Positions 9,644 to 26,923 of a stretch of 64,000 nucleotides of DNA are shown here, one piece after another; positions within the stretch are counted from its first letter, which is position 1; the number at the start of each line of letters is the position of its first letter. The translations under genes and the position numbers were made by a program. Origin of the DNA: Chrysoporthe austroafricana (taxonomy: Eukaryota > Ascomycota > Sordariomycetes > Diaporthales > Cryphonectriaceae); NCBI GenBank assembly GCA_001051155.2, contig JYIP02000006.1:3410001-3474000 (forward strand), written 5' to 3'. The notes beneath the pieces were generated by a model. That model ran no database searches, had not been told where the DNA came from, and saw only the letters and a list, made by a program, of their open reading frames with translations.

Positions 9644-10128
9644 CTATACTATATCTGCCGAAAAGTCTAGTTTCTTCGCCCTCTGCTCGCCGCCCTTCTG
9701 CACTATGTTCGCAGCTACATTGTTGCCGATATGGTCTGCATTCTGAGTATCCCCAGCAGCATTTCTTAAGTCTGCAGCATGATGTGAATTCTGAACCCTC
9801 TCCAGCGGACCATTCCACTCTGCTCGAGGGAAAGGTTTGTCAGTGCTGATTCACCGAGTTCATATAGGGGATAAGCTTTTGAGCGCGGCAGGGAGCTGGT
9901 CATACTGAAGGACATCTTGCCAGCTTTTTGTCTTCCTCTAACCATGTTCGTAGCTATGTTATATCCAATCTGCTTGAACCTGCTCTGCGACACCGCACGC
10001 GCTCCCTCTTCGGCGGGACTTGACGGATGTTTCCAAGCTAGGTAGGCGATAATAACGCCGACGATGGCGATGGCGCCGCTGGGAACGCCGACGGCTATGC
10101 CGATAATATCCGAGGTGCTCAGCCCCAT
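9644..10128 (-). CDS. small single-TM protein with two amyloid-like repeats (candidate NLR partner)
   Basis: Exons 10128-9906 and 9819-9644 give 132 residues. The 86-nt intron has GTATGA, a CTGAC branch and a CAG acceptor. Residues 7-32 form one strongly hydrophobic Gly/Ala/Ile/Val helix, then a short charged segment. Two copies of a motif follow: QIGYNIATNMVRG..KMSF at residues 53-74 and HIGNNVAANIVQKGG..KLDFSA at 104-129. They are joined by a polar Asn/Asp/His-rich linker. The same motif is in the protein at 13590-14249 and at the N-terminus of the NLR at 18781-23590. The intron falls in phase 1 directly after the conserved Phe of repeat 1, exactly as in the 13590-14249 gene. Known fungal amyloid-signalling partners (HET-S type) have paired repeats like these plus a membrane-attacking domain; here the TM helix could play that part. 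Function is inferred. It diverges from the Cdc48 paralog across 552 bases. Confidence 0.75.
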
Positions 10129-10680
10129 GGAATGATTGTATTAGCCGCTGGTAGCGAATCTGGTCTGCTGTTGGTCCGTTGAATTTAAAAAAAAAAAAAA
10201 AAAAAAGAAGAAGAAGAAGAAGAAGACGAAGACGAAGAAGGGGAGGGAGCTTTTAGCTTGGGAGCCAAGACTCGAGGGTCGGAGAATTGACAATTGGGAC
10301 TTACGTTTGTTGCGTTAGTGAGCCCTGACCGCCCACAGCCACGCTGGCTGACAGGCTGGCAGGGCAGGGTATCATCGCGTTAGGATATGGGCGCAGCCAG
10401 CGGATCCCGTCGGGTCGGGCCATTCGGCCATTTGCCAGGGCCTACCTTGCACTATTAAGCCAAGGGTCAGAGGCCTGGCTCTTCAGGCCGAACTCCAGAT
10501 GAGGAGAGCAGCTTGAGACGGCATTTCCCATAGAGGCAAGCACTCTGCAGTGCCCAGTACAGCTCTTTCCGGCTAGGTGTGAGTATATGAAGTGTATATG
10601 GTCTCTGATTAAATAGCCATCAGGGCAAGCATAGCCCTTATATTAACAAATAAGCAGTCTTCTTGTCTATACCAGCGGCT
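10129..10680. promoter_or_regulatory. divergent promoter region between the TM repeat protein and the Cdc48 paralog
   Basis: The 552 bases separate two start codons facing away from each other, so they should contain both promoters. The stretch 10187-10240 is low complexity. No reading frame is evident. A shared promoter would allow co-expression, but I see no specific operator sequence. Confidence 0.5.
10187..10240. repeat. poly-A then (GAA/GAC)n low-complexity tract
   Basis: A run of about twenty A residues passes directly into GAA and GAC triplets within the divergent promoter region. Confidence 0.9.
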
Positions 10681-13445
10681 ATGGCTGCGAAAGACCAGAC
10701 TGCCGGCCTTTCACCGAGGCATCGCGCTGTCTCCCTGGTGTAAGTAATAAACAGCCCCAAGGCATTGGAAACGTCACTTTGACGAGGATGTCAGCGTCCA
10801 CGACACGACAGACGATGATCCCTCGCTTATCTACCTCTCCAAGAGCGTTGAAGCCTCGCTCCAGCTGTCACACCACCGCGTCGTTCTCGTCCGTGGCAAG
10901 GGCTCTCATCAGCACAATGCCACCACCGTGTTGACAGTTGCTTCCGAGCCAGGGCCGCTGTGTGTGCCCACCGATGACCAGATTGCCTTGATAAGCCGGA
11001 CAGCGCAGCAGAACCTGCGCGTTGAGCCTGGCGAGGTGATTACCGTGAAGGCCTGTACAGACATTCAAAAAGTGAGTACATGGCCATTTTTTCATCCTTA
11101 CCTAGATTAATTGCTAGATTTAAATGACCAAGTTTTGTCGAGGATCGGACTGGTTGCTAAAGTTTTCTTTATTTTTCCTTGCCCTCTCCTCAGGCAGAGC
11201 GAATCGACATTAGGCCCATCAGCAACACCTTCTCCGGTGACGTGAGGGACTTGCTCAGCATATATCTCAATGTGGAAGACCGCATTCGCCCGGTTCACCA
11301 AGGCGATGTCTTCACCATTCGCTCGACCGAAGAAGTCGGCAGCCACGCCCATGGTCTCGGTGCTGATGGTGCCGGGGCCAGCCTCAACGCGGTGGTCGAG
11401 GTCCAGGTGTACCACATGGAACCGGCGCTGTACGGCCTTTTCACAGAAAACACGAACATCTACACCGGGCCACCGGTCTCATCTCCCTATCTGGACGCTG
11501 GTGGCGGAAGCGGCAGTGCAAGTTTAAAGTATAGCGATCTCGGCGGGTGCGACGCGCAGGTGGCACAGGTGCGTGAGATTGTCGAGCTGCCGTTGCTGGA
11601 CCCGGGGGTGTTCCGCGCGCTCGGCGTCCGCCCGCCGCGCGGCGTGCTGCTGTACGGCCCGCCAGGGACGGGCAAGACGCTCATGGCGCGGGCTGTGGCG
11701 GCCGAGACGGGCGTGCACTTTGTCGTCATCAACGGCCCGGAGATCATCAGCCAGATGGCGGGCGGATCTGAGGAGCAGCTGCGGCAGGCCTTCGAGCAAG
11801 CCGAGGGCGCGGCCCCCGCCATCATCTTCATCGATGAGATCGACTCTATTGCACCGAGCCGCGACAAGACAAGCGGAGAGGTCGAGAAGAGGGTTGTTGC
11901 GCAGCTGCTGACGCTCATGGACGGCATGTACGCGCGGGAGGAGAGCAGGGTGGTGGTCATGGCCGCCACAAACCGCCCCAGCGCCATCGACCCGGCGCTC
12001 AGGCGATTCGGCAGATTTGACCGCGAGGTCAACTTTGGCGTTCCGGACGAGAAGGGCCGGCTGCACATCCTAGAGATCCACGCGCGGAAGATGGCGCTGG
12101 CCGGGGACGTAAACCTGAAGAAGATCGCAGAGGAGACGCATGGGTTTGTAGGCAGCGATCTCGCAGCGCTGTGCTTCGAGGCGGCAATGCGGCACATACG
12201 GCACAAGGTCTCTAGAGGTGACATAACCCTGGGCAGGGAAACCGTGGACGCCGGCGTGTTGGGCAATCTGCGCGTAGACATGGACGACTTCCGCGTGGCG
12301 CTGGGTGCGCTGAATCCTAGCTCGCTGCGGGAGGTGGCCATCGTCGAGACACCCAACGTGTCCTGGGCCGACATTGGTGGGCTGGATAACGTAAGGGAGG
12401 AGCTGGTTGAGATGATTCAGTATCCGGTCAAGTACCCATACAAGTTCTCCGAGTTCGGGCTCAGCCCGCCGAGAGGAGTACTGTTCTATGGGCCTCCGGG
12501 GACGGGGAAAACGCTGCTTGCCAAGGCGGTGGCGCACGAGTGCAGTGCCAACTTCATCTCGGTCAAGGGGCCAGAGCTGCTAAGCATGTGGTATGGCGAG
12601 TCGGAGAGCAAGATTCGAGATGTGTTCAATAAGGCGCGTGCTGCGGCGCCGTGCGTTGTCTTCCTGGACGAGCTGGACTCTATCGCGAGCGCTAGAGGAT
12701 CGAGCATTGGCGACGCGGGAGGCGCATCGGACCGGGTCGTCAACCAGCTTCTTACAGGTATGTAAACTTCTGATGCCCTTTCTTTTTTTTTCTTTTTTCT
12801 TTTCTTATACTGGATACTTGAAGACTTGTGCTTCTTGCAAAGTATCTATTCATCTTTTCATGTAAACCCCTCTTCTTACTTTGGACAAAGAAAAGGAAAA
12901 AAGAGGGAAAGAAGGAACGAAAAAGAAAAATAGAAAAAAGGAAAGCCCTAACCTACTGATCGATAGAGATGGACGGCATGGCCCCTAAAACCAATATTTT
13001 CGTCATCGGCGCCACCAACCGCCCTGACCAGCTAGATCCTGCCCTCTGCCGTCCCGGCCGCCTCGACAACCTCGTGCATGTTCATCTGCCCGATTACAAG
13101 GGCCGCATAAGCATTCTCAAGGCGCAGCTGCGCAAAACGCCGGTCGCGAATAAGGCTGCCGTGGTGAGAGATATCGCGACGCGGACGGAAGGCTTCTCAG
13201 GCGCGGACCTGGGGTTCGTGTCGCAGCGGGCGGCGAAGCTGGCTGTTAAAGAGTCTATCAAGGCGGAAGAAGGAGGAGGAGCAGGCTCTGTCCAAGAACT
13301 AGATCAGGGCCATTTCGATGAGGCGCTGAGGCTAGCGAGGAGGTCGGTCAGCGATGCTGACATCAAGATGAGCGAGGCCTACGCGCGGACGTATGAAGAA
13401 AGCGGAGAAGGAGCCGGCGAGGTAGAAAGAATTGGGGGATACTGA
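10681..13445 (+). CDS. Cdc48/p97-like AAA+ ATPase, divergent accessory paralog
   Basis: Exons 10681-10739, 10795-11071, 11194-12757 and 12967-13445 encode 792 residues, close to canonical Cdc48 (about 820). The order is Cdc48 N-domain ([20 protein letters not shown], then the barrel ending [11 protein letters not shown]), D1 and D2. D1 has Walker A GPPGTGKT at about 267-274, Walker B IIFIDEID at about 322-329 and arginine fingers [10 protein letters not shown]2 has Walker A at about 545-552, Walker B VFLDELD near 604 and LTEMDGM spanning the last intron. All catalytic residues are present. The N-terminal tail is short and different, several D1 positions depart from the near-invariant Cdc48 sequence, and the C-terminus lacks the usual Tyr-bearing tail. 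A genome would carry the housekeeping cdc48 elsewhere, so this is best read as an accessory copy. Its place between two amyloid-motif genes suggests segregase or disaggregase activity on them, which is inference. Confidence 0.88.
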
Positions 13446-13589
13446 AACGGTTTAAAGTTGCGTGAGAGTGCCCTTGAGCATCTCTTCGCATTATAATCGA
13501 ACTAAGGCTTCGTATTCCACCAGTCTTGCTAGTTGTAAAGACATCAATAGAAAGTTTGTACGCTGAACGACGCAAACTTGCTCTCCTTT

Positions 13590-14249
13590 CTAGCTATCTT
13601 CCAAAGCCATTTTCTTATTCTGTTTTCTGTGCCCTCCCATGTTGGCTACAAATTCGATCTTCTTGGCCTTTAGCGTGCCTTCCTGACTGACCTCATTCGA
13701 GGCAATTTTTTGACCGACATGCACAGATCTCAAGTTGGCAGGCAGGTTTTCGGGAATATCAACTGCAGCATCCTTATCGGTTTGTTTATTGCTGTAGTTG
13801 GCGGCTGTGACTTTAAGTCGTACAATTAATGATTCATAGCTTAAAAGAAATAGTTGCGATGTTCTATACCAACTAACAAGAATAACACCATGTAGAAATA
13901 AGGGAGGGAAACTAACCAAAAGTTACTGCCTCTTCAATTTCCATCTTACCATCTACCACGTTAGAAGCAATGCTATCGCCCTTGTGGAAACGAGGCTGTA
14001 TTGAATACGTTCCTGGTTAGTATGACTTATCCATAGAGCTCCTGAGTCATGAGCTTTCAAGCCTCCCAGATTGTTAATTTCTGGAAAGACAAAAAGGAAG
14101 AAGAGATGATGGACCTGAGCTGGAGTCGACGTGTCCTGAGACTGCGCTACAGGCGTCTTCTCCTTGGACAGCTTCTTAGCCTCGCCCTGGAAAGGCTTCG
14201 TCGTGGTTCGAGCAGCTCTTGAATTTGGCTCGGCCATTTTGGTAGCCAT
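13590..14249 (-). CDS. small soluble protein with two amyloid-like repeats (candidate NLR partner)
   Basis: Exons 14249-14115, 13995-13917 and 13804-13590 give 142 residues. The second intron is GTTAGT to ACAG. The first has a good CTAAC branch and ACAG acceptor but an unusual GTCCAT donor after CAG. The first 45 residues are basic and Lys/Thr/Ala-rich, with no domain I recognise. Repeat 1 (HKGDSIASNVVDG..VTFAAN, residues 49-74) is almost exactly one exon. Repeat 2 (HVGQKIASNEVSQEG..IEFVAN, residues 100-126) follows a polar linker. The two copies share H-x-G-x2-IASN-x-V and F-x-AN. The protein ends in a short basic tail. The motif matches the NLR N-terminus (HAGDIIASN) and the TM protein at 9644-10128. 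No HeLo or other killing domain is present, so it may be an adaptor, decoy or prion-like relay. The 3' end faces the Cdc48 paralog 144 bases away. An in-frame Met at 14237 is an alternative start. Confidence 0.72.
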
Positions 14250-14842
14250 GCGGACTGATAGGGAGCAGTATTCAACAACGTACGAGGTTCTCTAAAGTTG
14301 GACGTTGAAAGGAGGACTAGTGAACGAGGAGTAGCAAGCGCAAGGTGGGGGCCAAGGCCGAGGGCGAGGGCCCCCGGGTCTTTAAGTAATTACTAAAGCA
14401 CCTCTTAAGCTTACGTGTTAACGACGGCCGTGCAAGAGAACCGAACGGGACCAAGCGGAGAGGGTGGTCAGACGACTTGACTAGTAGCGAACCAAGAGTT
14501 CGGCCCAAGGGTGTGCAGCAACACTATTGGGATGCTACATAAGGCTCTCGGCCGACGGAGGAGCTGACGGTGAGAAAACGGGAGCAGCTTCTGCTTTCGC
14601 TCTCAACAGAGCCGCCTCGTCAGTTTTTCGCTTTTTAGTTCTCACGGCAATCTGCATGTAGTATAATCATTAACTCTGAAACGTCTTGTCTAGAGAGATT
14701 GCTAGGAAACTGTGGGTCTTGGATATTGGAGTTGGCTTGACACGAGCTCAACAGATACGGACACACTACAGTCAATCACAAAGGACACAGAAACTATATG
14801 CCTCGCCTCGAGGCAGAAACTCGAAAAGTTGAATCTGATGCT
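14250..14842. other. promoter of the small repeat gene and 3' flank of the AAA gene
   Basis: Both neighbours are on the minus strand, so this stretch should hold the promoter of the 13590-14249 gene and the 3' untranslated region of the AAA gene at 14843-17575. No protein-like frame was found. Confidence 0.5.
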
Positions 14843-17575
14843 CTACCTCCGTCGAAGTGACATATCCTTCAGTTTCTTCAGCCCTACATAAGATAGTCTC
14901 AGCAATGCAGCGAGCACCGCCCCAATCACTGACAGGGCAACAAGGCGCCGCACCCAAGGCGGCATGGCTCTTAGAAGCGCTATTCGATACCTGCTCTGCA
15001 GGCTCTTGCCCTTGGTCTCGCTCTTCACCTCACCACCGCTAAAGCCATGCTCTTTCATGTGCGCCTGTGTTTCCTCCCACACCCGCACCATTTTCAACAG
15101 ATGCTCCTTGGTGAGGAGGCTGGCATGGTGTGCTGCGATTGTGCTCGCCGCCGAGACGGTATTACTGATCTCGCGGCCGTTCATCTCGTACTTCGCAAGG
15201 GAGCTTGCGGTCTCCTCAATATCCAACCCGACCACGCTACGAATCACCGGGGCTTTTCCGAGGACGGAAGTCAGCTGCTGCTGCCACAGCTGCCGGCGGA
15301 TAGTTGTGCTCGGGGCCGGGTAGTGCAGCATGATGTGGATGCGGGAGAGCACGGCCGGGTCGAATTTTTTGGCCCTGTTGGATGTGAGGAAGATGATGCC
15401 TTGGAAGTACTCGAGTTGGCGGAGGAAGACTTTCCGAGTTCATGTCAGCTTCTACCCCAAATGAGGTTTCCTAATTAACGGACAGTGGTGAGGGTGTATT
15501 AGATATGTACAGAGCTTTCCTCGGCGTCATCCCCCCTCCCCCAAACCCCCTTCTCTCTGTCTCTGCGTGTGTATGTGTGCATTAGATGGACATACCGGCA
15601 ACGAGCGCGTTCCGCTCCAGCGACGTCTTGCCGCCGCTCTCTCTCGACTCAAGGAAGACATCTGCCTCATCGACCAGCAGGACCGCCTTCCATGCCGTTG
15701 CGTATCGGACTAGCCGCTGCAGCTCGTTCTGAATGTCGGACAGTTGGTTGCCTAGCTCGCCTGTTGGAAAGATCAAGAGCGGCCTCCTCGTGGACTCGGC
15801 GATGGCCTCTAAAGAGACAGTTAGTCGGCGTCCCCCCATTGATGATAGAATAGCTCGTTAGCTTCATAACTACAAAGAAGTCATTCACGACCTACCTGCC
15901 CAGAAAGGAGAAGAACAAGAAGAAAAATAAAGAGGGAGGGCAGAGGGGGGGGGGATAGAAAGAGTATCACCACAGAAAACAGGTGTTAAAAACAAGTGTC
16001 ATGCCACTCACCCGCCGTGTACGTCTTTCCGGTCCCTGGTGGTCCATGTAAAGCAATTACCAGCCCCTTTCCCTTCATTTTCGACTCATCGCGTGTGCTC
16101 GTGAGAGCAAAGGAGTGGCATTCGACCAGCGGTCTGATCACATCATGGTGGCCGGATGGCAGCAGAACAGAGTTGAAGGCCTGCGTGTCGAATCTGTCCT
16201 CTTTCAGATCAGGGACGAAGAGTTGGCACCAGCAGCGCAGGTTGAGGCAGTAGCCGTACACGAAGGGGGGGCTGAGGATGTTGGGGTCTTTAATCGAGCC
16301 GCCGACTAATTCCTCTGAGATACATACGTTTAGTTGTGTCGCGTTCCTTGCAGCGTGTCTCAGTGGGCGACATACCGGACCAATTGTAGACACTGGGTTT
16401 ATCATCCCCGGCATAGTCTTCCATAAATCTCTTGAAATCAACAAAAACCCGCCCACTCGCCTTTAGAAGCATGTCAGCTGGAGGAAGAAAAAAAAAACAG
16501 AGCATAACCCTATAGCAAGATCAAAGACCCTTACCATCTGAGGGAGCCAGACCCCGCTATAGCTCCCTGGCCTCTCATAATAGCCACTCTTCAATGGCTC
16601 CTTTAGCCTTAGGCACAGCGCGTCGTACTTATACAACCCGCCTGACGTGAGATCTGCGTAGGCAATTCCTCGTTTGGCGCATTCGTTTTCTATCTCCTTG
16701 CCGTCCTGGTGCAAAGACACCGGGCTCGAGCTCAGACTGGTCACCGTGACGACGTTGTTGCCCGGCAGCTCCTCGTCTTGGTAGATTTTCAGCTCCGTAT
16801 CGACGCGGCCGCTCTTGGCCCCGTCGAAGGCGTTATAGCAGACCTTGAGAGCGAAGTATTTGCCGAACCTCCAGTCTTCGAGGTAGGCCGTGCTGCGCAG
16901 CCAGTAGAGGCGCTTGTGTCCGCTTTCCAGTCGAAAGACCAGGGTCCCGGGTGGGAAGGCGGCCCAGAGGTGCTCAAAGGTCACGAGGTTGCCCTTCAGG
17001 AGAGTCAAGGCTTGCGCGTGCGTCTCGCTGTCGAGGAAGTCGAGGAGGAGGGTCAGATGGGCGCGCACCTCCGAGCCCTCCGCAGCCGCGGCCTTGCGGC
17101 CCGTGAGCTGCTTGTAGTGGTGGTACAGCAGCGCAAAGGGCGATTTGATCTCGACCGAGTCACGCCACCCTTGCCTATGGCTGGGGTAGTATCTGACGAC
17201 AGTTTCCAGGGCCTCTAAGATAAGCGGGCTATTGATGCGCAGCGTCTTGTCGACAAGTTTCTTCTCGTGGTCGTAATTCAGGGTGGACACGAGCGCGAAG
17301 ATGTGATGCTCGCCCGTCACCTTCTCGTCCTCGGTGGCGTCTTTGATCTTGAAATTATCGCCCTCGTAGATGCGCTTGAGGAGCCTGATGCTGCAGGTCT
17401 TGCCAATCTCCTCCTTGGACACCCTGCGCTCCGCCTTGTCCTCGGGCCTGGGCTTATCGGCGTCGCCGGCTGCTGGCGCCAGGTCGCCGGGCGCATCCTT
17501 CACGGGGGTGATGCCTGACATGTCACTCACCGTGGTACCTGTATTATCACTTTCTGTGCTGCTCGACTCGGACAT
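14843..17575 (-). CDS. AAA+ ATPase with DUF7025-like N-terminal region and C-terminal TM helix
   Basis: Five exons, 17575-16535, 16460-16376, 16314-16012, 15808-15596 and 15429-14843, give 742 residues; all introns have CTRAC-type branches. The first 90 residues are acidic, Ser/Thr-rich and probably disordered. A long N-terminal region follows with the pattern of the fungal DUF7025 family (LWAAFPPGTLVFRL..YFALKVCYNAFDG..ASGRVFVDFKRF). The ATPase core has Walker [12 protein letters not shown] near 468, Walker B VLLVDEAD near 520, sensor LTSNR and arginine-bearing DPAVLSRIH. After a lid helix comes a C-terminal hydrophobic helix (WVRRLVALSVIGAVLAALL) and a basic tail, suggesting tail anchoring in a membrane with the ATPase in the cytosol. 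Members of this family have no settled function. It diverges from the NLR gene, 1.2 kb away, as accessory ATPases near NLRs may do. I found no copy of the shared amyloid-like motif in it. Confidence 0.85.
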
Positions 17576-18780
17576 GATCGGGTGCGCAGTCGCGATTGAC
17601 GATGGGGACAGAGAGATCCTGAATACTCTGACGCCATGTTCTTAAATGATCAAATTTTGTGCACATCTCTCATCCACGGAACTGCCAGGCCTGGCTGCCA
17701 TCCTGTCAGGCTGCTGCGCCCTTCCGTCCCACAGCCTTCCCGTTCGCATATCATGCCCAGCCCTCCATTTCACCCTGCGCCCGTGAGGCTATTTACCGGA
17801 TCCAGATTTCGACGACACCACGTATATCGGATCAACCGATTAGCGGCGATTTAACTGATCAAAAAGAATACGCGTGCCTGCAGGATGTTAATCAAACACA
17901 AGCCACCATGGCATGAGTGGACTAGAATGGCCTGTAGCCTTCAGCTGTAGCTGACTGTGTCTTGTCGATCAGAACTAGTTGGGCTGAAATGGCGTAAACC
18001 TTAAGTGCGGAGAATAACTTTCCCATGTCGGATTCGCCGAGTCTAAATGTTTCGATGACCGTGGTATGGCCGAGAAGGGAGGGGGAGGGCGGAAGAAAAA
18101 AGCTCCCATCTCCATTCCGCTCGGGCACCACTCTGGGTATACGGGACGGACCTTGAGGCTGAAGGAAGGGACTACTACCCCGCCAGACAAATGGAGGGGT
18201 GGGTCACCTGAGGCCGGCAGGGTGTCCTTATACCAAGCAGCCGTGATACAACCTGCGCGGAAGGCCTCATTTTCAGCTGCATAATCGCCAAGTGGCGGCG
18301 ACACCTGACCTCATAGCTTGCTGGGATTCGTCGTTTGTTAGATACATAGCGCCTTCAAACCAATAAAAAAAGAAAGAAAAAAAGAAAGAGAAAATCAAGG
18401 CTGTCCAGCGCTGACACTCGCTAGCCTAGACCGTGGCACGTGGTGCGCCTGCATCGGTCGAGATGACGGGGACGCGAGGAGGAAACGGTGCTGGCCTCGA
18501 AGGCCCATGACCAGGGCTATCGAGGTCGAGCCGCGTCGAGGTACCTAGCATTTGCAGAGATTGGCCTGGTTCCTCTCTGGAATATCTGCTGGGGGGCTGA
18601 GTACGACATCAATAAGGCTGAAGGATGGGCGCTGCTCGTCCTGGATCGTCGTCGCGGCTGAAACTCTGTCTAGATATTGTTTAGTCGGCCAGGGGCACCA
18701 GACAGAATCAATCTTCACTCTGCCACTCAACGAGTCTCTTGTTTCTCTCAAAGTTTGGGTCTGCTGATATTATGTGAAAG
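17576..18780. promoter_or_regulatory. divergent intergenic region between the AAA gene and the NLR gene
   Basis: These 1.2 kb lie between two outward-facing starts and should contain both promoters. A purine-rich tract at about 18365-18395 and a G-rich stretch near 18070-18090 are the only local features. Frames on either strand are not protein-like. No third copy-bearing small gene was found here. Confidence 0.45.
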
Positions 18781-21700
18781 ATGAGCGGTGACAAGCAGGA
18801 GCTCCCGGTAGGCAGCCGCAAACCCAGCCACAGAATGCTCTGTATTGACGTGATTACGTGCTGTTTAGCCGTTCAAGCACAAGGAAGTAGACGAGAACTT
18901 CCTCCGCAAGGCCTTTCCATACATCCACCCCAAGGATGGAGGCATTAATTTCACGCATGCCGGCGACATCATCGCCTCCAACAGAAACAATGGCCTCATG
19001 ATTGTTGAGAACCAAAACTTTTCGGCCCAGATGCCTGTCAACCACGAGCACGGTGAGTGACATTGCTATAGTTGTCTTGGACTCAGAATATGTCCAGGAT
19101 ACGCCGTCACACATACCTTGGACAGGCCTTGACCTTTCCTCGGCGTTTGTGTACAGGAATTGCAGCGCAGCTGACGAAGGAACAGGCCCCATCGGCCATG
19201 ACATCGGTTGGATCTCGCCCGAGGAAGCGGACAAAGTCCATGCGCACTCGCTACGCCGCCGGGTTGAGGGTACGAGTGCCTGGTTTCTAGACTCTTCAGC
19301 CTTTGCCGAGTGGAAGAGGACGCCTGGCAGCTTCCTCTGGCTGCATGGAAAGGCACTGTGTGGCAAGACCCTTTTGTGGTGAGTTGTGCCCGCTCACTCT
19401 CTGATGCGAAGCTGGGGATGATATGGGGCTCATGAGGAACACATCGGAAGTGCTGGGATCATTGAGAATCTGAAGGCCAAACCGCACGGGATAAAACCCA
19501 ATGGGGCCAAGCCCGACCACGAGGGGCCAAGGGAGGACCCGTCTGACGACACCAAGGCAGACGGGCCCAGCTCGGGAGACGTGGAACCAAAGGAGCCGGC
19601 TCCTCCGACCGAGGGGCCAAACGTCGTGGGATACCACTACTTCACCAACAGCAGGCCGAGGGAGGCCAAGGACGTCGACATGCATCAGGACACCGAAGAC
19701 GACCCTCTCGAGGCCCTCCTGCGCTCCCTCATCAGGCGGATCTGCCACGAACGGCCCAAACTTCCGGATGCCGTCCTCGAGCTGCAGTCCAAGCCGGAGT
19801 ACCGCAAGGACGGCAGCCGGATCGGTGTCAATGTTCTACGGCGTGCCCTCATAAAGCTTGCCCACGAGGTAGGGTCTACCTTCCTTGTCATCGACGCCGT
19901 CAACCTGCTCGGTGTTTCTCTGGGCGGCGCGACCACCGACGCTGATGACCTCAGGATGAAGCGGAGCATGGCAGCGAGCAAGATTATCAGCCTGTTCAGG
20001 GAACTGCTCAAGTGCAAGAACATTCGGCTCCTGGTGGCGACTCGGGACGACGACGTAGTGGAACTGGACACTGCTTTGCCAAAACTCGCGCAACAGAGGG
20101 GTAATCACAACGTCAAGATCGAGGATAGTGAAGTCCTTGAAGATATTGATAAGATGGTCGACGCAGAGCTTAAAGAAGCTCACTGGGCCCCTATCATCGA
20201 GGCTAGGCCGACGTGGTCAAATCAGATCAAGAACAAGGCGCGGGATTCAAACGGCAGGTACGTTATCCACCAGATACGCCGCAAGGGGCTTAAAGGAGGG
20301 ATGTGCATTTGATGTATATGTGTGCTGACTGCATCAGGCTCGGCGTAGCCATGGGCCGTCTTCAAGAGATCTATAGGTTCTTCTGCCGCAGACTGAGTCC
20401 TACGCCAGAACAGGTGCAGGCAGCGTTGGACAGGCTGCCAGGAGAGATTGATGATCTTTACAGCAGTGTGGTCGGCCAGATCTGCTCAGAGGGGAACCTG
20501 CGCATGGCGCTGATATGGCTCACGTGTGCGGTGAGGCCGCTGCGGGTGGAAGAGCTGGTGGAGCTGATGGTGTGGAACGGCGGTGGCAACCAGAGCCAGG
20601 GACTGGGCGGTAGCCACAATCGCAGTCGGGGACGCAGCAGCGACGCGGGAGGTATGGACTCGTACTTTATCCGCCAGAAGTTTGGCGGCCTGGTTTTGAT
20701 ATCGAGAAATGAGAGTGATGGGGACGGGGCGACGGTAGAGCTGGCAGACTCGACACTGAGGGACTACCTCTTTGACGATGCGCGGGGTTACAGGAAGCTC
20801 TTCGAGGCCGACGGGATGTCGGCGCACCAGACGGTGGCACACCAGTGCATCATGTATCTAACGCAGTGTTCTTCTGAGGTTCACAGCGAGGCGGATGGGT
20901 CAACGAGGGGCTCTGGGGACGTCAAGGAGGCAGGGGACGAAGGCGATGACGGAGGCGACGACGACGACAAAAAGGCGGAGCATGGTAAGGGTAGGGGCGG
21001 TAAGAAGGACTCGGACGACAGCAAGACGAAGCAGAGGACTCGGAAGCAGGGCCTCGCGGCCCGACGGCTCGTCGAGTACGCCATCACCAACTGGTACCGG
21101 CACGCCTTGAAGGGACTGGAAAAAATGCAAGCGGCGAGCTACCAAGAGCTGCAGGAGCCCCGACAGGAAGACACTCTGGCCGCGGACTCGTCACAGGGCG
21201 GCTTCGGCGGGACAGCTATAATGCCTCTTGTTGGGGCCGCCGCATCGAGGCTCTGGACCCGGCTGAGCCAGGCGTACAGCGGAATCTCAGCATTCCTAGA
21301 CAGCATTCTGCTCATTGATGGGCAGCCTGCTCGGGGGGACAAGGCCGACATTGATGTCCTCGGCGCAGCTGTGCCAGCGGCCACCGCCCAAGGCCCCTCT
21401 GCGAAACAGCAATCGTTCGCCGCCTGGGCCCGGTCCACCAAGCACCTCCTAGAAACGGCCCAGCACGACCCCGCCGCCTACCGCCGCTCCCTCAAGGCAG
21501 CCGCGTACCACGGCTACGAGTGCGTCGTCGACGTCCTCCTGGAGCAGGGCGCACCCACCAGCGCGGCGGGCTCCGGTCACAGCCCTCTCACCGCCTCGGC
21601 CAGCGGGCGCCACCACCTCACGGTCCGCCTCCTCCTCGGCGGCGAGGTTGACGAGATCTACGGCAACACGTGGTGGCCTGACGACCTCCCGGACAGGGAC

Positions 21701-23590
21701 CAGCCCTGCCATGGCCGCGGGGACGACTCGATGCGCGCCACGGACGGAACGTCAATCGTCGGGTCGCTGCTCAGAGCCGGCGCGGATGTGGAGCAACCCA
21801 ACGTGATGGGCGAGTCCGCGCTGCATCTAGCCGCCGGCCTGGGGAACGAGGGTGTCGCCTGGCAGCTGCTCTCGCGCCAGGCGGACACGGAGGCACAGTG
21901 TAGCGGGAACGGGATCATAGTTTTCATAGGGGAGAAGGAGAAGACTATTTCGTGGCGGTGGAAGTGTATCGGGACACCGCTGCACTGGGCCGTCACCGAG
22001 GGGCAGCACAGCATGGTGCGCCTGCTGCTGCGGCACAGGAGCGACGGTGTGCACGCCACGGCTCGCGGCGTGCATCCCACCGCTCTACACCTGGCATCGG
22101 TCGACGCGGACAGGGAAATGGCCGAGATACTGATCGATGCGGGTGCATCGGTGGACGCGGAGGACTCCACCGGAGCGACGCCGCTGGTGATTGCGTCGCA
22201 GTCAGGCAAGACGGAGGTGGTGGCCTGTCTGCTTGAACGTGGGGCTAACGTGCACCATTCGACCCGGAGCAGAGCGACGGCGCTCGCCCATGCCGCGTAT
22301 AGGGGACACCTGTCCGTCGTCAGGACACTCCTAGATCATCGGGATAGGGCTGGGGGTAGCATTGATCTTAAGGGCGCCGATTCCCATGAGCTGACAGGCC
22401 TGCACCTCGCAGCGCACCAGGGCCACGCGGACGTGCTAGGGTTTCTGCTGCAGCGCGGTGCAGTGCCAGATCCGCTGACCCTGTCGGGGACGACGCCTCT
22501 CATGCTTGCGGCGATGAACGGCAGGACAGAGTGCGTTAGGAAGCTGCTTGCCGAGGGCGCGCGGGTCAACCGCGGTCGCGACAGTGGGGACACGGCGCTG
22601 ATGGCCGCTGCCGAGGAGGGCCACGAGGAGACGGCAGAAGCACTATTACATGCGACTGCGAGCGTTCACACATGCGACACGTCGTGGAAGCGGGTGATAA
22701 ATGTCGCCGCCTTCGGGGGGAGCGAGACCGTGCTCCGCGCGTGTCTGGCCGGCGGCGTCCACGCGAGGGAGACAGAGGACTGGGGTCGCTCCCTGGTCCA
22801 TTTCGCCGCGGCGGGCGGCAAGAGGACGATGATCTTGAGAGTGCTCGGCATGGGCTTCAAGGCCACAGAGACGGACAAGCAGGGACGGAATGCGCTGCAC
22901 TTTGCGGCGTGCAGTGGCTCGCTGGAGGCGGTGGAGGAGCTGCTGGAGATCCCGGAGGTCAACGCCGGCCAGCCGGACAACGATGGGTGGACGCCGCTGC
23001 ACTGGGCAGCGCGCCGAGACAATGTGGAGGTGGTGAGAAAGCTGATGAGCAAGACCGGCTATGTACCAGGGAGGACCATGGCCGACACGGCGGGGATCTG
23101 GACGCCGGTCAAGATCGCCGCCTTCCACCGGCACAAAGACGTAATGGACGTCCTGGAGGGGCGGGAGCGGCCTGCGCAGGATGAGAGCGCCGAGAACGTG
23201 GGCAAAGAGGACGAAGAGCAGCTGAGGTTTGTGGAGGGATACGTCCACGAGAGCATAATATGCGACGCATGCTACTTGGTAAGCAGTTTTCCTTAACCCC
23301 ACCATTTCCTTTTCTCTCTCAAAGTATATAGATACGCTATCCCTACCATTGACTGACTCTGACAGCGCATTACCGGGAGCCGATTTCGCTGTGACGACTG
23401 CCAGGTAGTCGACTATTGCTTCAAGTGTATGAGGACGGCGGACAAGGTTGATATCGGCCACGCAGGCCACAGGTTTGACGAGATACGCGGCAGCGAGCCG
23501 GTCAACTACGACCCCGAGAAGATTGTAGCGCTCAAGGAGCTCCTAAAAGAGCGGGCGACTAGAACGATGGCAGCAGATTTGGCCAGCTAA
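18781..23590 (+). CDS. NLR: N-terminal amyloid-like motif, NACHT-type NTPase, ankyrin repeats, ZZ zinc finger
   Basis: Six exons, 18781-18807, 18869-19052, 19171-19378, 19451-20257, 20338-23278 and 23366-23590, give about 1463 residues in one frame. The third acceptor is least sure, as other AGs lie nearby. Residues 36-65 hold NFTHAGDIIASNRNNG..NFSAQ, one copy of the motif paired in the proteins at 9644-10128 and 13590-14249. The NTPase follows: Walker A GKALCGKT at 130-137, a Walker B-like FLVIDAVNLL without the usual acidic pair, and the sensor RLLVATRDDD. An acidic then Lys/Gly-rich insert precedes roughly a dozen ankyrin repeats at about 780-1350. The C-terminal 80 residues form a ZZ finger with pairs CDAC, CDDC, CFKC and a GHAGH histidine pair. 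Fungal NLRs of this layout sense non-self and trigger a partner by amyloid templating; that role here is inferred from the motif and neighbours. Confidence 0.85.
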
Positions 23591-23790: not shown

Positions 23791-24269
23791 TTAAGAGTAA
23801 AGTAATATTTTAGACCACGAGAGCTGGCCAGCAAGGCTCAGCCCCAGAGAGACCTATTCCCGTGTCAGCCTTCCATAGCCGTTGTCGTGGGCAGCCGTCG
23901 ACCTATACCACATACCGCTGGATTGAACAGGCCCCCTGATATCCTGTAGAACGCCCATACGTTCACCAGCAGGGAGAAGCCGTAGACAATAGAAATGAGG
24001 ACGACGGTGTCGCTGCTCGCGCCCCCCGCGACTGCCGAGCTGGACGCCTGGCTGAGGACCATGAGCTGCCCGGAGTACGCCATCCATAGGAAGAAGAAGG
24101 TGCCGACGAATTCGCCCGACGAGGCGATAAAGTGGCTTTGGATCGAGCTGATGTGCCCCCCTTCGACGTGCGTGTTCCTGGACCGCCGCTTCAGGCTATT
24201 CTTGACCATGTCCATGATGCCCTTGGTGAAGCCTGCTCGTGGGGGCGTGCAAGATGGGGATTCGAGAGG
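23791..24269 (-). pseudogene. truncated aquaporin (MIP family), N-terminal half only
   Basis: Minus-strand exons from about 24269 to 23916 and 23853-23791 encode the start of an aquaporin: a basic cytosolic tail, GEFVGTFFFLWMAYSGQ in TM1, VVLISIVYGFSLLVNVWAFY in TM2, then SGGLFNPA with the first NPA box. A 62-nt intron (GTATGT, CTGAC, TAG) cuts directly after NPA, and the next exon continues in frame as VSLGLSLAGQLSWSK. The frame stops five residues later in AT-rich DNA about 200 bases from the end of the NLR gene. TM4-TM6 and the second NPA box are absent, so no channel can form. The 5' exon is not clear either. Rearrangement or insertion beside the NLR gene is the likely cause. Confidence 0.75.
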
Positions 24270-26923
24270 CTGAAGTTATCTCGAATTTGATTATGCCATA
24301 GGCTTTCGACGTCATCGTTATGGACGCGAGGTCGCTCCATAGCTGTGGGGCAGGGCGGCGCGTCTCACATTTCGATAAGTTAGTGGTCGGCGAGGCCATT
24401 CCCGGATTAGTGAAGGCGTGGGCTAGTGAAGGACTAAGAGGACCTCGGCTTTGTTCTACACTTCGCTGCTTACGGGACGGTCACAGCCGTGTCTTCCATG
24501 ACGCAAGAGCGATCATGTGTTTGGTGTCTCTCTGCCGTTCAGCCCGATATATGGGTCTGGGGAACGACTAGTCTGTTGTGATACTACGAACGACGTGCGT
24601 GAGCAGGGCGTCGACTGCGGCCTGTCAAGTTGCGTCGACGGGCTGGTACAAAATACATACAAACCCACCGCCTGTTTCTCCCAATTCCACAGTCCAGTCG
24701 CATCCGGCTTGTGTGGTAACTGAAATCACGCCTTAGTACGACAATTCCACTGGGGCTGTGGGAGGTATGTAGGAGGGTTCACGATTTGGACACTTGGGAA
24801 GCTGATGGCCCCCCTTCGTCCTTTCGAATTATTGCGTCTAGGCTAAGATATTTTTTCAGTCCGAGGAGTCTCAGATTGCTTAACGCGATGAAATCAGAAA
24901 ATAAATCGTAGAGTATATCTTGTTGCTGTCCATCACGCACAATACTATCCGTGTTCAACGGTGTGATCATTTCTGCAACATAGCCGCTGCGGCCTATTCA
25001 GACAAAAGCGCAAGCAATGTCCTTAAAGAAGAAGGCCAATCTGATGCCATCGACATCTAAGCTGGGTCAAGAAATGGACACTGACGAGGGGCAGTGCTGA
25101 TCCTGCGTTGAGACGCCATCAGAAGGAGAAGTGAGTATCCATTATCTAGTCATGCGACTTGATAATGAACCCAGCAATTAATGAGAAGTATAATGAACAG
25201 TACATCCCTGGCCATGCTGATGATAAAGCCATCGTCTAACTGAGGTTGGCCTAATTCTACATGAGGTAGACCTCTTTCATTAGCCACTCGCTCTGCTTCG
25301 AGGCGCCTGCAGCTGTCAGTACGCTGCGAGCCACGTTCACAACTTTCATTGGCAGGCGGGATAATAAAGTTCCGACGAAGTACAGCTTGACATACCGTAT
25401 CACGGTTTCGGGTACGGCGAATTAATTATAGTCCTATAGGCTTTGTGTAATAGTATCGCGGTGTACGACGCCCAAAATCCCCGAGGCTGCTGCCCAGCTC
25501 CCTCCCCTTTTCTTTGCCCTGCTCTTTGGATCGGCTACAGTGCCTAGACCACGGATCTCATGGTCACTTCATCCTAACCCTAGCTGATCATACACCCGAA
25601 CAGGACGGGATACACAGCATCTGTGAGACCTAGGCTGAGGACTCAGTATGACCTTCTGCAATACGTAGTACACGGGAAGCGTCGGGTGGGCATGGAATAG
25701 CTCGTTGGTCTACCCTGACGCAGGCGACTACTATTAATTATATGCGTATCGCCTAGAGATGCTTAATTGTCGAGATCCGAGCCCCGATGACATCGTGTTT
25801 GGGAACTGAACTGTTGCATGACTCCCCGCACCATGTTCCAGAACCCTGTGTCCTTGACCCATCAAGCCATAACTAACTCGTATAAACCGTTTAGGATATC
25901 GGTATGATATTCTCCGTGAATTGGGTACCGGTCGTTTATTTTTGTCCCCCCCAGACCCACCCATATTAACTTTGCTACCTCAGCTGCGCTTTTTCGCGCG
26001 ATGCCATAAATGCATAGTCTATTGACTGAACGACTTCGTGTCTATTTACTATTGCCCATGGAGTCAAGCCGACTAGGATCACATTTGCGCCAGCCGCGTC
26101 GCCAAGCGCAGCGAGCCGTAGCTCATCCGGCACCAGGGCTGTCAACGGCCGCGTGGCCAAAGTAACAGCGCGACACCGAGGTGGAGCACGGCGGCGACGA
26201 TGGGACCCAGAGGCGTCCCCCGCGGACCCGGGGGGAGCCATCGACAAGCTCGGCCTGTCGCGTCCGGCTGGGCAGGTCATGCGGACGGTCGGGTGGGATG
26301 ATAAGCTCAGGATTCTCCGCGCGTGGGGGAGGGCAGATCATCCGCATGAGACTCGCCTCGGGACCCATGGGCACACAGAAAGTCCACGCGCAGGCTCTAA
26401 CTCACCGAGGGGGGCCGGCAGACGGAATATGCCGAGAATGGGGGCTGAGGGAGGGAGGAGGACGACGAGCGCGCCTGACCCCCAGCGCGGGCCCGCATCC
26501 GACAGACAGCGAGGGCAGCGCCGCGCCGCCCACGGGAGCCGTAGCGCTTATCGTGCAGAGCCAAGCTGCACGGCCGAAGAGAGAGTGCGTCAGCGGCACA
26601 AGAACAAAAGGACGCAGGCCTGCGCGCGGCCTAGTGTTCCTTGCGCGCCAGCTCGCCGAGACGTCGCATGACCGGGGCGCTGCCTTTGTCAGTAAGCTGA
26701 CTCAAGGACGTGCAGCAACAAAGGGCGCGTAAGGTGTAAGACCGCTGCAGGACCAACTGCAGATCGCGGCCGTAGGATCCGTGACGGAGTGTGTTGCCTG
26801 GGACGATAACCCGGAAGTCTTATACGGGTGGTCCGCCGCCCTCAGCACGCCTGGTGCGCAGTCCTGCTCGAAATCTAGGTAAGGCGGAGAAACCACGGCC
26901 GCACGAGTTACAGCCTGGCAAAG
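24270..26923. other. gene-poor right border of the island
   Basis: The left two-thirds have mixed, fairly AT-rich sequence with no credible frame. A minus-strand frame at 24779-24970 (LYDLFSDFIALSNLRLLGLKKYL) is faintly protein-like but matches nothing I know. From about 26100 the sequence turns sharply GC-rich, where open frames on both strands are long by composition alone. The last few hundred bases should hold the promoter of the membrane-protein gene at 26924. Confidence 0.45.

Follow-up and report, generated by a model that had tools for sequence, protein, structure and literature searches.

A paired motif in two small proteins, likely shared with a nearby NLR of Chrysoporthe austroafricana, and a fungal membrane-protein family with exchangeable tails

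The window analyzed here is a stretch of 64,000 nucleotides from Chrysoporthe austroafricana (assembly GCA_001051155.2, contig JYIP02000006.1, positions 3,410,001 to 3,474,000 of the forward strand), to which all coordinates refer. The region 9644-23590 holds five genes, in the order small membrane protein (minus strand), Cdc48-like ATPase (plus), small soluble protein (minus), AAA ATPase with a DUF7025 domain (minus) and NLR (plus). The membrane-protein gene (9644..10128) encodes a single-pass protein of 132 residues, and its spliced model is clean, with exons 10128-9906 and 9819-9644 separated by one 86-nt intron of the form GTATGA...CAG. The gene of the soluble partner (13590..14249) comprises exons 14249-14115, 13995-13917 and 13810-13590, the donor of the first intron, GTCCAT, being weak. 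The initial annotation had already given 132 residues for the former protein, while its 142 residues for the latter became 144 in the new model. The NLR gene (18781..23590) encodes 1478 aa in exons 18781-18807, 18869-19052, 19126-19378, 19451-20257, 20338-23278 and 23366-23590, the start of exon 3 being one among eight in-frame options. A search of the 48.15-Mb genome gave no clear second copy of any of these three genes.

From its N- to its C-terminus, the NLR consists of a short motif-bearing region, an NTPase domain, ankyrin repeats and a cysteine-rich end. The NTPase matches NPHP3_N with 46.4 bits for the first piece and 27.7 for the next (Pfam cut-off 24.8), and the ankyrins match Ank_2 with an E-value of 3e-89, so that the protein has the composition by which fungal NLRs are recognized, a NACHT/NB-ARC-type NTPase followed by C-terminal repeats; it was absent from the 26 genomic matches of the NACHT profile PF05729. 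We read the cysteine-rich end as a ZZ finger; the sole Pfam match in that part is an ANCHR-like B-box, below its cut-off.

The five motif copies that had been reported for these three genes are all present in the sequence. The membrane protein carries one at residues 53-74 (9907..9972, minus strand), seen in the sequence of the spliced model and with the foreign profile described below, and a second near its C-terminus at residues 104-127 (9662..9733, minus strand), which is the best six-frame match of that profile. The soluble protein carries copies at 13918..13986, found by the genome-wide core search and by the foreign profile, and at 13650..13721, found by the core search, both on the minus strand. 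The single NLR copy lies near the N-terminus (18956..19021, plus strand) and was found by the core search and by a profile of the partner copies in the window. The motif is 22-24 residues long; G, A, N, G and F are common to all five aligned copies, and the consensus can be read as H-x-G-[DN]-x-[IV]-A-[ST]-N, followed by about eight variable residues that include the second G and then by x-[KR]-hydrophobic-x-F. The layout first proposed, with a single N-terminal NLR copy and a pair in each of two small neighbors, was borne out, and C-terminal pairs recur in three proteins of other fungi.

At the DNA level the core HxGxxIAxN has 13 occurrences across the 48.15 Mb of the genome, and three of these fall within 5.3 kb at this locus; the reversed pattern, used as a control, occurs at five sites. 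Among the remaining 10 sites, eight give an open reading of the core; by eye, none looks like the full motif. These 10 sites would give about 0.003 expected per 14 kb by our own arithmetic, an estimate that is post hoc because the core pattern was derived from the copies in the window itself.

The paired motif was further evaluated with a foreign profile, built from the six copies of three relatives in other fungi (P0011-P0013, see below) with no copy from the window, and run against 1793 six-frame segments. The membrane protein of the window ranked first (E 0.0075; 0 of 2000 shuffles reached its score) and copy 1 of the soluble protein second (E 0.062; 1 of 2000 shuffles as good), followed by an unrelated segment (E 0.29) and by copy 1 of the membrane protein (E 0.71). 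As judged by these comparisons, the paired motif in the partner proteins is well supported. The foreign profile did not pick up the NLR within its first 100 residues (170 of 2000 shuffles scored equally). A profile made from the four copies of the window partners placed the NLR exon directly behind its training set (8.3 bits at E 0.23, reached by 1 of 5000 shuffles) and an unrelated segment from another locus close below, at 7.4 bits; with a pooled profile of ten copies the NLR exon was matched by 2 of 5000 shuffles, and one unrelated segment of the window outranked it. The match of the NLR copy lies mainly within its first nine residues, and a search with the first 135 residues of the NLR returned none of 106 candidate database proteins at E<=10, so that the pairing with an NLR is known from one genome only. 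It is likely, although the case is thin, that the NLR carries the same motif. Charged residues make up 3 of 22 positions in the NLR copy and 4/22, 6/24, 7/23 and 7/24 in the partner copies, the NLR thus lying below three of the four; fewer charges on the NLR side is also the direction reported for HET-s motifs in PMC4518210. Charge complementarity between repeats was not significant over five proteins (the net value of 4 was reached by 2144 of 20000 shuffles), even with the soluble-protein pair anchored by hand unlike the others, a choice that favors complementarity.

The motif core of the NLR is translated only when its exon is joined to the 27-nt first coding exon. In that motif exon the GC content at codon positions 1/2/3 is 0.54/0.29/0.76, resembling the 0.65/0.44/0.76 of the neighboring Cdc48-like gene, which supports the reading frame. 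The signal is weaker in the membrane protein (0.55/0.44/0.57) and is missing from the second exon of the soluble protein (0.58/0.35/0.38).

The transmembrane segment of the membrane protein spans residues 4-33 (10030..10119, minus strand), with a hydropathy of 2.38; the soluble partner is without such a segment, its best 19-residue value being 0.57. A single-sequence search with the membrane protein yielded two relatives among 11 candidates, one in Xylaria acuta (53% identity over 53 residues) and one labeled Lasiodiplodia mahajangana (67% identity over 33 residues), and a profile of these three sequences, run on 7281 candidates, matched 54 proteins at E<=10, 24 of which, including the two training relatives, had E<=1.3e-4. 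In 23 of these 24 the length is 99-154 residues, P0011 having 216. The transmembrane segment is near-invariant across the 25 aligned sequences, and in 25 of 25 the net charge after the helix exceeds that before it, which by the positive-inside rule predicts a cytosolic tail. None of nine relatives scanned exceeded any Pfam cut-off; below threshold, the segment matches the ordinary fungal surface proteins Mid2, SKG6 and Psg1. Against the genome, P0001 gave 12 weak sites elsewhere (E 0.001 to 1), and the two that were inspected, L033 and L040, are Ser/Thr-rich proteins of the ordinary surface type.

The tails of the 24 relatives, assigned by eye (34 of the 54 matched sequences were inspected), fall into three classes. 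The first has the paired motif as in the window and comprises P0011 from Podospora pseudoanserina, P0012 from Immersiella caudata and P0013 from Triangularia setosa, in which the pair is at the C-terminus and identity is 38-41% across 95% of the query. The second, with ten relatives mostly from Xylaria and other Xylariales, ends in a single short element, GD-x-x-GD...G-N-x-x-T-x-N-F. The third, with nine (P0014-P0016, P0018-P0022 and P0024, from for example Neopestalotiopsis, Hypoxylon, Madurella and Oculimacula), has many GGxA-like units in each tail, which could possibly form a repeat fiber or solenoid; P0002 and P0023 were placed in none of the three. A pattern expression for the paired motif matched twice in each of the window protein and P0011-P0013 and in none of the remaining 21 of the 25 sequences. 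The identity of the transmembrane segment averages 61, 63 and 67% between tail classes and 68-73% within them, while the tails are not alignable across classes. Despite the visual resemblance of its best member, we treated the second class as separate, because its tail profile failed as a test: 391 of 3000 shuffles equaled the NLR score, and neither partner in the window gave a useful match. As judged from these alignments, the membrane protein is a member of an unannotated and unnamed fungal family with a near-constant anchor and differing tails, which the initial annotation overlooked in calling the three proteins otherwise unrelated. This combination suggests a new route by which NLRs could target the membrane of their own cell. 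The tag of P0011, QC764_210290, a relative from a laboratory model, may point to the vicinity of the NLR Pa_2_10340 of P. anserina, under what we take to be the tag scheme. The product of Pa_2_10340 is given as a sesB-like/NB-ARC/TPR NLR in PMC4986451.

Structures were predicted for P0013 and P0014, both of low confidence outside the helix. For P0013 (three-row alignment), AlphaFold placed helices at 28-56 and 62-70, while no further element exceeded pLDDT 50 (mean 44.9) and no beta structure was predicted in the tail; in P0014, a member of the GGxA class, it placed a helix at 23-50 and isolated strands of one or two residues at low confidence. The stacked beta-solenoid anticipated for the repeats was thus not what the monomer prediction of P0013 returned. 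The models fit a membrane helix followed by a disordered tail, and they neither back nor rule out a solenoid in a polymer.

The arrangement was compared with known amyloid-signaling systems. As in NWD2/HET-S and HELLF of Podospora anserina, one N-terminal NLR copy is accompanied by two C-terminal copies in a small, nearby, membrane-acting partner; in contrast to them, the partner in the window has no HeLo or HeLo-like domain and its helix is hydrophobic from the outset, not freed by refolding, and unlike NWD2 the NLR has ankyrins at its end. The PP (HELLP, SBP) and sigma (SESA, SESB) systems offer precedents for a single NLR that serves two partners (PMC5485727), and this likeness includes the sharing of a motif; their motifs, however, are single in each partner (sigma being a threefold repeat of submotifs), whereas that of the window partners is paired, and their partners are HeLo-like/SesA and lipase proteins. 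No Pfam match to PF17046 or PF17106 was found in the window proteins or the scanned relatives, so that membership of PP and sigma was rejected. PUASM with its PNP_UDP partners is likewise a fungal NLR system with a nearby motif-sharing partner, but neither its FxGxGxQxxGxGxF pattern nor an enzymatic partner was seen at this locus. In bacteria, BELL partner proteins are likewise of small size and contain a transmembrane helix (PMC7889193); BASS/BELL systems share with the window an NLR adjoined by a small protein that has such a hydrophobic helix and a C-terminal motif. According to its published description BELL forms a helical bundle, whereas here there is one helix with a disordered tail. 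NLR34, an unassigned ascomycete motif of 28 residues in 29 NLRs for which PMC9815663 found no neighbors, may or may not be identical with the motif of the window. Membrane partners of this kind are undescribed in the portions of the open-licence literature covered, including PMC12881547, PMC12261475, PMC12258605, PMC4986451 and PMC8086366.

Building on the motif copies and their architecture, on the family with its exchangeable tails and on the predicted topology, we hold with moderate confidence that the locus encodes a variant of fungal amyloid-type signaling, in which the NLR would template or cluster membrane partners that are inserted beforehand, to the damage of the membrane. The NLR of such an ascomycete-type fungus would sense a cue through its ankyrin repeats and oligomerize, and would thereby gather its N-terminal motif copies, which might then engage the pair on the cytosolic tail of the membrane protein, by binding or by templating. 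The latter would already be seated in the membrane by its one glycine-rich helix before NLR activation, and the crowding of such helices could open or weaken the membrane, or mark it for repair or death. Having the pair and no helix, the soluble protein of 144 residues might serve as a relay, an amplifier or a competitor. Contact between NLR and partners, its amyloid nature and the membrane damage are proposals that draw on the analogy to NWD2/HET-S and HELLF and to the PP and sigma systems.

A serious alternative, which we consider possible though doubtful, is that the repeat is genuine and conserved but folded or peptide-binding and not amyloid, the membrane protein being a scaffold or cargo receptor and the proximity of the NLR incidental. 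The absence of predicted beta structure is consistent with this, as are the weak similarity of the NLR beyond nine residues, the two AAA genes that separate the module members, and the sub-threshold matches to Mid2, SKG6 and Psg1 together with the similar weak genomic matches of the transmembrane segment. The rarity of the core, with three of its 13 genomic sites at this one locus, and the position of the C-terminal pairs on disordered, exchangeable tails argue against it.

We consider it quite improbable that the motif is a diverged HET-s-related motif (HRAM) and hence a new member of a known family. In HRAM systems the partner carries two C-terminal copies against one in the NLR, glycine 19 after hydrophobic positions 16 and 18 is perfectly conserved, and the partners are of the HeLo type, as set out in PMC4518210. 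The copy arrangement is the same here (two in each partner, one in the neighboring NLR), the length is close (22-24 against 21 residues), and several copies have K/R and then hydrophobic-x-hydrophobic near the end. However, the conserved residues of the window motif differ, a glycine after the last hydrophobic residue is present by inspection in 2 of 11 copies only, and Pfam revealed no HeLo, HeLo-like or SesA domain in the window proteins or the scanned relatives; the likeness to the NWD2/HET-S arrangement extends to the copy layout but not to the HRAM glycine or the HeLo-type domain. Pfam gave no match to HET-s (PF11558) in the window proteins at E<=1 or in nine relatives at E<=10, although Pfam detects just 38 of 155 published HRAM pairs (PMC4518210). 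The HET-s profile also found no match in the whole genome, a search that was uninformative because the controls were equally silent. That the likeness is a chance one of short peptides, or an artifact of wrong splice models, is hardly credible given the motif pair in relatives from other fungi and the codon bias of the NLR motif exon, even with the atypical donors of the first introns of the soluble protein and the NLR, the eight in-frame options for NLR exon 3 and the weak or missing codon signal in two small exons.

We regard the membrane family with exchangeable tails as the more interesting result. A broader version, which taken jointly in all its parts we think unlikely, would see a wide fungal family of execution proteins with a conserved helix and an exchangeable polymerizing tail, in which NLRs would gather inserted helices by tail templating without the unfolding of a toxin domain, lineage-wise swaps between tails with the paired motif, a single short motif or GGxA repeats would insulate pathways from one another, and the second Cdc48 would be a dedicated disaggregase here. 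The preferred reading of a templated membrane partner, if true, would provide fungal NLRs with a minimal membrane effector that lacks a globular execution domain, as well as a new motif family in which to test templating and cross-seeding barriers. It would also mean that length filters have hidden effectors: in PMC9815663, one search for NLR neighbors was limited to 200-400 residues, a limit that excludes 23 of the 24 relatives, and the other started from known effector domains.

Other candidate assignments were tried and rejected. The PADLOC library of defense systems returned 0 families for four proteins, a three-sequence profile against solved structures gave an unrelated best match (E 0.38), and of 30 stretches on viral contigs that fit a pattern none was confirmed.

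The two AAA-ATPase genes between the module members, left out of the initial annotation, are listed here as neighbors, with no membership in the module implied. The Cdc48-like gene (10751..13445, plus strand), between the two small motif genes, has AAA domains and CDC48_N, the latter below its cut-off, and is a diverged second Cdc48 with 65% identity over 528 residues to another copy on contig 17; that it might act as a dedicated disaggregase is a guess. The ATPase with DUF7025 (14846..17641, minus strand), between the soluble partner and the NLR, has, on visual inspection, a hydrophobic stretch close to its C-terminal end. Beyond the NLR, the open frame 23854-24275 (minus strand) looks aquaporin-like by eye.
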